IMG/VR virus record: IMGVR_UViG_3300042896_001037
Span: 1-61,267 of that record
DNA: 61,267 nt
Reading direction: 5' to 3' (one strand)
Source of the DNA: a virus
Shown here piece after piece: positions 8,629 to 18,044 of the stretch. The translations under genes were made by a program, and so were the position numbers. Each line of letters begins with the position of its first letter. The stretch's first letter is position 1. The notes under the pieces were generated by a model that worked only from the letters and a program-made list of their open reading frames with translations, was not told where the DNA came from and made no database searches.

Positions 8629-9381
8629 ATGAAAAACACAGAAAATTTTAAAGATCCGAATCAATTGGATTTATTTGCAGGTATTGTATTAACTACCGAA
8701 CAACAAAGTCAAGTTGATCGATATATTGATAACGTAAACAAAAGTGCTAATTTTCAAAGAAATAAAGTACAACAACTTGAACAGTTACTTGTTGAAGCAG
8801 GTTTTAAAAAGGGAATTGATTTTGAAAACACATTCAAATCATCTTTAGAAACAAGTACTGTTGGAATTGGATGGGGAAATAATCAGTTTGAAACAGAGGT
8901 TACAGCTGAATTTCATTCAGGTGATGTTGTGTTGAAGGGTTTAAGGTTTTCAAATAATGAATTAATAAAGGCTACATTTAATATTAATATTGATAAAGAT
9001 AAAGTTCAATGCTATACAGTTCAAGGTCAATCTCGTTATATTAAACCTAAAACATTACTTGAAAAACTTAATCAATACAATGAATGTCAAAAAGATGCGT
9101 TAAAGGATTTTCAAAATAAAACAAATTTAAAACAAATTGTAGTTGAAAAATATACAAAACTATATCCAAATGCTATAGTAACAGTTAAAAGTGATTGGAC
9201 AAAATATAGCGGCTCGTTTGAAGTTATTGAAGTTAAATTTGAATCAGGTAGTTATGTTCAATTTAGATTAGACACATACAATAATAAAGAATATATGTTC
9301 AGAAACCACGATGCTGAATTTGTAAAATTAAATTCAGAGGAATTGTTAAATAGATTTTCAAAACAGGAAGCTCTCAATTAA
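8629..9381 (+). CDS. Hypothetical protein with sliding-clamp-binding motif, 250 aa
   Basis: No domain recognised. Residues 12-16 are QLDLF, a perfect match to the bacterial beta-clamp-binding pentapeptide QL(S/D)LF, placed near a flexible N terminus (MKNTENFKDPN) as such motifs usually are. The rest is a helical stretch (25-55) followed by two strand-rich segments with similar flavour (VGIGWGNNQFETEVTAEF and YSGSFEVIEVKF), perhaps a repeat. If the motif is real the protein is brought to the host or phage clamp at forks. Single gene, ending in a terminator hairpin. Confidence 0.75.
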   Translation: MKNTENFKDPNQLDLFAGIVLTTEQQSQVDRYIDNVNKSANFQRNKVQQLEQLLVEAGFKKGIDFENTFKSSLETSTVGIGWGNNQFETEVTAEFHSGDVVLKGLRFSNNELIKATFNINIDKDKVQCYTVQGQSRYIKPKTLLEKLNQYNECQKDALKDFQNKTNLKQIVVEKYTKLYPNAIVTVKSDWTKYSGSFEVIEVKFESGSYVQFRLDTYNNKEYMFRNHDAEFVKLNSEELLNRFSKQEALN

Positions 9382-9389
9382 GAGAGCTT
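9368..9389 (+). terminator. Terminator hairpin fused to promoter, stop codon in loop
   Basis: AAGCTCTC-AATTAA-GAGAGCTT, eight base pairs; the TAA of the upstream gene (9379-9381) is in the loop. Its T run is the start of the promoter element. Confidence 0.8.
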
Positions 9390-9412
9390 TCGTATATTGT
9401 AGTATAAATAAA
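9389..9412 (+). promoter_or_regulatory. Early promoter element
   Basis: TTCGTATATT, GTA, GTATAAATAAA; leads to 9423. Confidence 0.75.
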
Positions 9413-14959: not shown

Positions 14960-15076
14960 ATGGAAGATCTACAAACCTATTTAAAGGAACTTGTTAATGA
15001 AAGCATTATACACAATGATGTAAAGGACGAGATATTGTTTTTGGTAAAAAAGCTAATCAAGGAAATAGAAGCGTAA
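14960..15076 (+). CDS. Small helical hypothetical, 38 aa
   Basis: MEDLQTYLKELVNESI then NDVKDEILFLVKKLIKEIEA; one or two amphipathic helices. Its stop codon lies in the loop of the terminator that follows. The last five codons and the terminator are repeated almost exactly at the end of the next gene. Confidence 0.55.
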   Translation: MEDLQTYLKELVNESIIHNDVKDEILFLVKKLIKEIEA

Positions 15077-15082
15077 GCTTCT
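15067..15082 (+). terminator. Terminator hairpin fused to promoter, stop codon in GNRA loop
   Basis: AGAAGC-GTAA-GCTTCT; the loop GTAA holds the TAA stop of the upstream gene. TT and then TTCG follow. Confidence 0.8.
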
Positions 15083-15083
15083 T

Positions 15084-15107
15084 TTCGTATATTGTGGTAT
15101 AAATAAA
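15084..15107 (+). promoter_or_regulatory. Early promoter element
   Basis: TTCGTATATT, GTG, GTATAAATAAA; leads to 15118. Confidence 0.8.
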
Positions 15108-15117
15108 GAAAAAAGTT

Positions 15118-15327
15118 ATGAAATTTGAAATTGGTAATAAAGTTAAAATAATAGGATTTCCAAAAATGAAATGTACTATTTATGATTGTTGGATAAATAA
15201 ATTGGAAAATTTAAGAATGGAAGGTAATGAAATTACTTATGCTGTTGAACATGACAATTATAGAGGGAAAATGGTTATGATTTATACAGTTAAAGAAAGT
15301 GAATTAATTAAGGACATAGAAGCGTAA
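15118..15327 (+). CDS. SH3/KOW-like hypothetical, 69 aa
   Basis: MKFEIGNKVKIIGFPKMKC then strands up to MIYTVKESELIKDIEA. The start (IGNKVKIIG) is typical of small SH3-like barrels. Ends in the same DIEA-stop-in-hairpin arrangement as the gene before it. Confidence 0.65.
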   Translation: MKFEIGNKVKIIGFPKMKCTIYDCWINKLENLRMEGNEITYAVEHDNYRGKMVMIYTVKESELIKDIEA

Positions 15328-15333
15328 GCTTCT
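15318..15333 (+). terminator. Terminator hairpin fused to promoter, stop codon in GNRA loop
   Basis: Same AGAAGC-GTAA-GCTTCT hairpin as 15067-15082, with the upstream TAA (15325-15327) in the loop; a recent duplication of the whole junction. Confidence 0.8.
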
Positions 15334-15334
15334 T

Positions 15335-15358
15335 TTCGTATATTACAGTATAAATAAA
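15335..15358 (+). promoter_or_regulatory. Early promoter element
   Basis: TTCGTATATT, ACA, GTATAAATAAA; leads to 15369. Confidence 0.8.
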
Positions 15359-15368
15359 AAGAAAAGTT

Positions 15369-16343: not shown

Positions 16344-16493
16344 ATGAAAGAAATACTAGAGAGATTACTAAAGGAGAATAACGAAATGATAATGGAATCA
16401 CCATTAATTGGAGATGATAACTATAGAGTAGGATATGTCCAGGCATTACTGAATATGAAATCATCAATTGAATTTGAACTAGATAAATTATAA
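16344..16493 (+). CDS. Hypothetical protein, 49 aa
   Basis: MKEILERLLKENNEMIMESP then GYVQALLNMKSSIEFELDKL; two helices. Last gene before the noncoding block 16494-17203. Confidence 0.55.
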   Translation: MKEILERLLKENNEMIMESPLIGDDNYRVGYVQALLNMKSSIEFELDKL

Positions 16494-16574
16494 AGCAACG
16501 GATAATTGATTAACTAAACGTGTATAAAACGAAGATTATCAACAAACATAGGGACTATTAAAACCAAGGAGATT

Positions 16575-16598
16575 ATCGTATATTAACGTAAATAAAGA
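16575..16598 (+). promoter_or_regulatory. Variant early promoter element
   Basis: ATCGTATATT, AAC, GTAAATAAAG: the first T of the core is changed and TA is lost from the second half. Leads to the 40-codon frame at 16608. Confidence 0.5.
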
Positions 16599-16607
16599 AA
16601 TTAACAT

Positions 16608-16730
16608 ATGACAAGTAGATCAACATGGGGAACGAAGATTATTAACAGGGATATTATAAGAATGAAAATCGTTAATGGTATGTGGAAAATGGGGAATGCA
16701 ATGGATATTGTAAGGAAATATTGGGGATAA
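16608..16730 (+). CDS. Small basic hypothetical, 40 aa
   Basis: MTSRSTWGTKIINRDIIRMK then IVNGMWKMGNAMDIVRKYWG. Basic, with four Trp. It has a variant promoter element and a leader ending ACATATG. Lies directly upstream of the phased repeats of the putative origin; could equally be part of a noncoding transcript. Confidence 0.4.
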   Translation: MTSRSTWGTKIINRDIIRMKIVNGMWKMGNAMDIVRKYWG

Positions 16731-16789
16731 CCCTTCCACGCAGCAACCACGCACCTTTACATGTCTTTCCAAAAGTATATACAAAACTT

Positions 16790-16822
16790 GTGAACATAAC
16801 GTGAACATTACATGAACAATTG
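16790..16822 (+). repeat. Three 11-bp iterons
   Basis: GTGAACATAAC, GTGAACATTAC and ATGAACAATTG follow each other without gaps; TGAACA recurs at 16791, 16802 and 16813. One repeat per helical turn puts the same face of the DNA to a bound protein. Together with the AT-rich phased block after it this has the make-up of a replication origin. Confidence 0.8.
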
Positions 16823-16831
16823 GGAAAAAAA

Positions 16832-16870
16832 TTAAAAGAATGTTAAAAAGAAATTAAAAAGATATTAAAA
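16832..16870 (+). repeat. Phased TTAAAA tracts, 11-bp period
   Basis: TTAAAA occurs at 16832, 16843, 16854 and 16865, exactly 11 bp apart, continuing the helical phase of the iterons to within one or two bases. Such a block would be curved and easily melted (a candidate unwinding element). Confidence 0.8.
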
Positions 16871-16894
16871 AAAATTAGGATACCTGGGATAGAT

Positions 16895-17145
16895 TTCGTA
16901 TCTTACCATATGTATTAATGAGTACGATGGTATCTCCCGCAATGGAAATAGAAACGGGCAACGCAACAGTTTTAGGACACAGAAAGGCGCCACTTAGTAA
17001 ACAAAAACGGTAGAAACATCAGTATTCGTGTGTGAATGAGTATGTAAGGTGATCATTGAAAACTTCACACCGCGATTATAGCCAAACGTGGCGCTTGGAT
17101 TATAAAGTAAAAAGCTTGCACAAGAGATGTAGGCTATCGTTCTGT
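16895..17145 (+). ncRNA. Structured noncoding RNA with crossing helices
   Basis: No plausible reading frame. It begins at a variant promoter element (TTCGTATCTT at 16895). Helices visible: TACCAT 16904-16909 with ATGGTA 16927-16932; CCCG 16936-16939 with CGGG 16955-16958; GCGCCAC 16987-16993 with GTGGCGC 17088-17094; GTGTGAA 17030-17036 with TTCACAC 17064-17070; ATAGCC 17078-17083 with GGCTAT 17132-17137. The last crosses the third, giving a pseudoknot. The GC-rich helices stand out in this AT-rich DNA. No tmRNA, RNase P or riboswitch signature recognised. Position beside the phased repeats suggests an origin transcript or regulatory RNA. Confidence 0.55.
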
Positions 17146-17172
17146 TTAAGGACTAAGTTTAGTAAATGAGAT

Positions 17173-17196
17173 TTCGTATATTTCAGTATAAATAAA
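17173..17196 (+). promoter_or_regulatory. Early promoter element
   Basis: TTCGTATATT, TCA, GTATAAATAAA; leads to 17204. Confidence 0.8.
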
Positions 17197-17203
17197 GAAA
17201 CAT

Positions 17204-17383
17204 ATGAAAAAAGTTGTAATTATATTAAAAAATCGTTTAACAGGATTAAACGAAGAATTGTTTTTATTAGAGAATAAAACAATAGTAAATCAAGAAACAT
17301 TTAAAAACATCTGTGAACAGAATTATTTTATAAATTCTGATGTAATGGCATGTTTTCATAAAAGTTGTTTTGGGAATAAGTAA
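17204..17383 (+). CDS. Hypothetical protein, 59 aa
   Basis: MKKVVIILKNRLTGLNEELF then NYFINSDVMACFHKSCFGNK. Hydrophobic start, three Cys in the last third; unknown. Own promoter. Confidence 0.55.
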   Translation: MKKVVIILKNRLTGLNEELFLLENKTIVNQETFKNICEQNYFINSDVMACFHKSCFGNK

Positions 17384-17714: not shown

Positions 17715-18044
17715 ATGAAAAGTGAAGTTAAAAGTGTAAAATTAGGACGTCCTGTAAATGAAAACAGTGTAAGACAATTAAGGATTAAAGAGTTAGAGTT
17801 AAAACGTAGTAACGGAGAGTTAAAGTTAGGACGTCCTGTTAATGAAAACAGTGTAAGACAATTAAGGATTAGTGAGTTAGAGAGTAAAAGAGTAAACGGA
17901 GAGTTGAAATTAGGACGTCCTGTAAATGAAAACAGTGTAAGACAATTAAGGATTAAAGAGTTAAATGAAAAAAGAGAGTTAGGTTTAGTTAAAAGAGGAC
18001 GACCTAAAATGATTAAGAGTGTAACTGATGAAATAGCTGCTTAG
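17715..18044 (+). CDS. GRP-repeat (AT-hook-like) DNA-binding protein, 109 aa
   Basis: Three consecutive 28-residue repeats, each KLGRPVNENSVRQLRI then a charged helix (ELELKRSNGEL and variants), followed by a final KRGRPKMIKS. GRP with flanking basic residues is the AT-hook core that enters the minor groove of AT-rich DNA; the last copy, KRGRPK, is the most classical. The repeats are also near-identical at DNA level (84 bp each, from 17739), so they expanded recently or are kept alike by conversion. A role as nucleoid-like or silencing protein on AT-rich phage or host DNA is inference. Followed by a terminator-promoter junction. Confidence 0.75.
   Translation: MKSEVKSVKLGRPVNENSVRQLRIKELELKRSNGELKLGRPVNENSVRQLRISELESKRVNGELKLGRPVNENSVRQLRIKELNEKRELGLVKRGRPKMIKSVTDEIAA
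17739..17990 (+). repeat. Three 84-bp tandem repeats within a gene
   Basis: Units 17739-17822, 17823-17906 and 17907-17990 encode the GRP repeats; each contains GGACGTCCTGT and the stretch GTGTAAGACAATTAAGGATT. No spacer variation, so not a CRISPR array. Confidence 0.85.

Follow-up and report, generated by a model that had tools for sequence, protein, structure and literature searches.

What do two arrays of short direct repeats with the same 11-bp period, set side by side in a non-coding stretch of a virus genome, do? The window, by which we mean the whole 61,267-bp virus record (~70% AT), codes for a gp6-like baseplate protein with 45% identity to its counterpart in the Flavobacterium phage immuto, and also for a T4-type terminase and a primase-like protein. 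On sequence grounds, we consider it a piece of the genome of a T4-like Bacteroidetes phage. A sequence-only reading had proposed that the locus is a replication origin: an initiator would bind the TGAACA iterons, the DNA would open at the TTAAAA tracts, and an adjoining structured RNA would prime or regulate initiation. We favour a different assignment, with a probability of about 0.7: the TTAAAA tracts would form the UP-element-like upstream region of an early promoter driving the RNA, and the first TGAACA copy would belong to a protein-binding core, its second and third copies being a duplication within one clade. The repeat region had no match in known phage DNA, and we found no account of this repeat/RNA locus in the literature. 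The evidence throughout is sequence comparison, so that the promoter, binding and origin roles given below are predictions; the relatives are mostly metagenomic fragments, and several of the loci are close kin rather than independent.

The 11-bp repeat arrays

The two arrays are located as follows.

16791–16818, plus strand: three TGAACA copies, at 16791, 16802 and 16813, period 11 bp
16832–16870, plus strand: four TTAAAA copies, at 16832, 16843, 16854 and 16865, period 11 bp

A re-count agreed exactly with the positions and period first reported, and the non-coding stretch, described as 470 bp long, measured 473 bp (16731–17203). Conceivably, such periodicity could arise by chance in AT-rich DNA, and three-copy arrays were indeed present at other sites in the window. 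However, the TTAAAA array was the sole exact 6-mer array of at least four copies (period 8–30) in the 61 kb. Four-copy arrays appeared in 1% of 200 first-order shuffles of the window, and in none of the 200 did two arrays of equal period fall within 100 bp of each other. These tests, conservation in close relatives and the phased A-tracts of distant relatives described below leave chance a negligible probability.

The whole region was present in the close relatives L089/L110, L090/L108 and L093, every one of which kept the four TTAAAA copies. L089 had exactly one 11-bp TGAACA unit fewer, while in L090 and L093 the first TGAACA copy was mutated to TAAACA. Loss of the phased repeats from close relatives had been named as evidence against an origin; instead, the repeats persist there. 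An exact search of viral contigs for a TGAACA repeat pair returned no hits, this criterion being too strict for near relatives that carry one-base variants. In many lineages, the first TGAACA copy lay at a fixed distance from a conserved element, box B. The second and third copies were restricted to the window's phage clade, in which they probably arose by duplication.

A conserved core and its upstream iterons

Upstream of the arrays, comparison with more distant loci delineated a core of three boxes and a repeat region.

16494–16690, plus strand: equivalent of the upstream direct-repeat array of distant relatives (AATCRTCAA-type), degenerate here, e.g. GATTATCAAC
16679–16690, plus strand: conserved box 1, TATGTGGAAAAT
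16726–16740, plus strand: box A, GATAACCCTTCCACG (family TCTAACCCYTCCATG), resembling one immuto iteron, ACCCGTTY
16766–16784, plus strand: box B, TTTCCAAAAGTATATACAA

The alignment of 18 core sequences gave the consensus boxes TATGTGGAAAAT, TCTAACCCYTCCATG and TAACCC...TTTCCAAAARTATATACAA, with box A and box B spaced 37–38 bp apart in nearly all of them. Outside the window clade, a scan for box B revealed homologous loci in another 14 cases, with variants in L125 and L289. Among 21 hits, there were no copies of box B plus box A in bacterial genomes (satellites, prophages). The core alignment displayed no conserved RNA pairing, and a structured leftward leader within the core was rejected on this ground; lacking such pairing, the core probably acts as DNA. 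Furthermore, the core was kept in three lineages from which the structured RNA is gone (L141, L143 and L156). Judged by this conservation, box 1, box A, box B and the first TGAACA copy, held at fixed spacing, would together form a protein-binding core.

The sequence that follows box B varied. In L145, L148, L159, L162 and L163, a long G/C hairpin (CCCCCCGTCCCCC...GGGGG) was located between the core and the A-tracts; it was absent in the window clade, and immuto has another form. In L143, L156 and L153, box B was followed by a tiny ORF for a Gly/Cys-rich peptide close to MENGGGCGCGRPKK. In L123 (808–1287), a GIY-YIG ORF directly after box B replaced hairpin, A-tracts and RNA; for this ORF in L123 and L141 the E-value was 3e-4, just below Pfam's cut-off.

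In seven distant loci, the 420-bp stretch preceding box B contained 5–10 sites of the AATCRTCA[AC] type against ~0.1–0.2 expected, an enrichment of about 50–100 fold; the other distant loci had 1–3 such sites and the window only one. In the window, the degenerate repeat region is overlapped by a 40-aa ORF (16608–16730), which may be a real gene since four of its six substitutions in L089 are synonymous. In immuto, the non-coding gap at 66,275–66,950 contained ~20 ACCCGTT-like iterons, mostly 11–12 bp apart or at multiples of this distance, and 13 of the 18 plus-strand copies of ACCCGT in that genome fell inside this syntenic gap, where the gene order is small genes, then T5orf172 and baseplate genes. 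The same architecture was shared by L176, L186, L200 and L243, among the matches listed, which were mostly unrelated. From the gene order, and from a small gene also present in the distant relatives, we infer that these four loci and that of immuto are orthologous to the window locus.

A probable early promoter and a structured RNA

Downstream of the repeats we distinguished the following features.

16875–16906, plus strand: predicted early host-type promoter, -33 TTA (TTG in relatives), N21, -7 TATCTTAC
16912–17145, plus strand: structured RNA, approximate ends, from cross-lineage comparison
16919–16925/17022–17028, plus strand: RNA helix P1
16956–16959/16989–16992, plus strand: RNA helix P2
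17114–17120/17128–17134, plus strand: RNA helix P3
17173–17190, plus strand: promoter of the ordinary phage type (GGA box and TTCGTATATT) serving the next small gene, separate from the RNA promoter

The sigma-A promoters of Bacteroidetes carry a TTG box at -33. In most lineages, TTG-N20-TAnnTT was found upstream of the RNA, and the relatives displayed the arrangement of a -33 TTG, a spacer of 19–21 bp and a -7 TAnnTTTG, the latter being the Flavobacterium sigma-A consensus (PMC9723704). The window's own version, TTA-N21-TATCTTAC, is off-consensus in its TTA and its spacer, which counts against the promoter reading. Upstream of the -33 TTG, A-tracts occurred at ~4–8 and 16–19 bp in nearly all of 17 sequences. 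When 15 loci were aligned on the -33 box, A-frequency peaked at intervals of one helical turn, and none of 5000 row shuffles matched either the peak-trough contrast, for which the columns were picked after viewing the profile, or the lag-11 autocovariance, which was not so picked. The immuto genome contained 36 plus-strand matches to TTG-N20-TAnnTTT[AG], most of them preceded by two A-tracts 11 bp apart, against 8 on the minus strand, and ~30 of its early promoters share the phased arrangement. In immuto (NC_055915) and in L136–L139, these sites with their phased A-tracts amount to a readable early-promoter grammar, and the TTG-N20-TAnnTTTA form with phased A-tracts can be used for annotating such phage genomes.

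The A-tracts of bacterial UP elements are bound by the C-terminal domain of the RNA polymerase alpha subunit. As in these elements, the A-tracts of the locus are spaced by one helical turn and closely precede the -33/-35 box. The window clade, however, has four tracts where a UP element normally needs two, which speaks against equating them; the simplest reading is that a UP-like region was extended to four tracts in this clade. Based on the phased A-tracts in the relatives' RNA promoters and the ~30 early promoters of immuto, we conclude with good confidence that the TTAAAA array is such an UP-element-like region. A dedicated unwinding element, as first proposed, fits less well: the tracts occupy the UP-element position of a host-type promoter, an arrangement kept as far as the immuto clade, and neither melting nor curvature stands out there. 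Exceptional curvature was rejected, as the bend of the repeats, 61 degrees across 63 bp, stays under the 99th percentile of the window, and so was exceptional melting, as ~41 places in the window are equally unstable over 53 bp. The AT tracts may nevertheless have a second function in unwinding. Judging from its conserved architecture, the promoter (-33 TTG/TTA and a -7 box like TAnnTTTG) would be strong, act early and belong to the host housekeeping type, transcribing a stand-alone structured RNA rightwards from a predicted start at ~16912.

Comparison across lineages supported the adjacent structured RNA and its separate variant promoter, both part of the sequence-only reading. Folding of the single sequence gave no signal (z 0.28). 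In an alignment of 13 RNA sequences, P2 paired in 54 of 59 cells (0 of 2000 shuffles were as good) and P3 in 90 of 91 (36 of 2000 shuffles matched), and both helices covary across lineages; RNAalifold recovered P3 with four double-compensated pairs. P1 was complementary in most lineages, and with 385 of 2000 shuffles as good it was dropped as a supported helix. The helices were picked by inspection, P2 by eye before the test, so that the counts for P2 and P1 lean toward structure. At E<=5, no Rfam covariance model matched 16480–17220, and in seven relatives the only Rfam match was a tRNA; the structured viral RNA is previously undescribed. Its loop motif occurred once per record searched, only at this locus. 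The RNA segment was 97–99.6% identical in close relatives, at least as conserved as most neighbouring genes (~72 to 100%). In the distant record G002, the RNA was found at 72% identity with the conserved element upstream. It was absent from the same locus in L141, L143, L156, L125 and immuto.

Could this region be the regulatory leader of the next gene? In several lineages a gene for a small basic protein (MKTIEVT...YTRK) follows directly, as a leader would require. However, other genes take this place in the window clade, L165, L159, L163, L166 and L289, and the next gene usually has its own TTCGTATATT promoter. Since the next gene varies in this manner, a leader dedicated to one gene is hardly probable, and the RNA is very likely to stand alone. 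The small basic protein itself, MKTIEVT...TRPNVYRNKKKYTRKxKHK, was conserved after the RNA in L142, L145, L148, L153, L161, L162 and L167. Immuto gp147 is of the same type, and no Pfam or PHROG match was found for this conserved protein. One is reminded of T4 RepEB, which has been implicated in the activity of oriE.

The locus as a candidate replication origin

The core and upstream iterons form a non-coding locus that is present in single copy and conserved in many T4-like phages of Bacteroidetes, and we give this larger locus nearly even odds of being a replication origin. Evenly spaced direct repeats were found as the 11-bp arrays of the window and as iterons 11–12 bp apart in immuto; relatives retain the locus together with repeats of one sort or another, and the TGAACA array itself goes no further than the close clade. 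In T4, oriE combines an early promoter with a cluster of 12-nt iterons that recurs in synteny among relatives and whose role is unproven (PMC3016281). The present locus likewise has a direct-repeat cluster in a T4-like phage, beside a predicted early-mode promoter. It differs from oriE in its repeat sequences, its adjoining structured RNA and the absence of a strand switch or skew change, and in that its origin activity is predicted. Most likely, the locus would work like oriE: an initiator or a host factor would occupy the repeats, next to the early promoter. GC skew was rejected as a sign of an origin, as its sign switched at the locus in neither immuto nor G002, and there was no transcription strand switch either; such switches are not universal for T4 origins (PMC3016281). 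No known initiator gene was identified.

The R-loop origins oriF and oriG of T4 also have a promoter near AT-rich DNA. Theirs, however, is a middle-mode promoter with the unwinding element downstream, a combination not found at our locus, whose AT tracts precede a predicted early promoter of the host type. Another parallel is offered by ICP1 Odn, an origin-directed T5orf172 nuclease (PMC8263062): as with the PLE origin, where iterons are the target of a GIY-YIG-type nuclease, a GIY-YIG ORF lies after box B in L123 and L141. The PLE iterons, in contrast, are semi-palindromes of ~30 bp bound by RepA, and no such initiator was found here.

The origin as the sequence-only reading described it is unlikely. 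What stood of that proposal is a conserved, iteron-bearing non-coding locus with an adjacent structured RNA, and the loss of an exact 11-bp unit in a relative and the oriE precedent of iterons with an early promoter are in its favour. On the other hand, the A-tracts are explained by a promoter type found genome-wide in immuto, the TGAACA triplet is absent outside the clade, and melting is unexceptional. With the RNA missing from the locus in five lineages, the idea that it primes or regulates replication was not sustained, and a primer role is very improbable. We likewise doubt that the locus represents a new origin class of T4-like Bacteroidetes phages in which fast-changing iterons and a fixed core are combined with an early structured RNA that controls initiation.

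Alternatively, the locus could be purely transcriptional, the core and iterons being regulator sites for the early RNA and possibly for a leftward transcript from box B, with no role in replication. The host-type promoter adjoins the repeats, and the minus strand of box B contains TACTTTTG, a conserved match to the -7 motif TAnnTTTG. Yet this leftward promoter lacks a -33 TTG, the core lies ~110 bp upstream of the RNA promoter and is kept where the RNA is gone, and 20 iterons in immuto exceed the usual needs of an operator. We regard this explanation as quite possible, at somewhat lower odds than an origin. Our preferred reading, an UP-like early promoter beside a predicted protein-binding core, leaves a candidate origin that is well delimited and present once per genome, in a group of phages that is widespread and has received little study. 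Immuto, as a cultured relative, is available for testing it. The reading also leaves a newly defined RNA without an Rfam match.

The common promoters of the window are of another kind, with a GGA box in place of TTG, and are reminiscent of T4 middle promoters. Across its first 21 kb (634–20862), an AGGAAT/AGGAC box at -28 to -23 accompanied ~34 TTCGTATATT promoters; GGA was present in 91–97% of them, and GTATAAATA, which contains the T4 late promoter consensus TATAAATA, stood at +9 to +17. Possibly, these are overlapping middle and late promoters. Short inverted repeats, such as GAAGCGTAAGCTTC, ended directly at a TTTCGTATATT promoter (for instance at 9365–9412, 15065–15111 and 15316–15362), as if a terminator and the next promoter were fused. 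Lastly, an 84-bp tandem repeat within an ORF at 17737–17963 encodes repeated GRPVNENSVRQLRI units.
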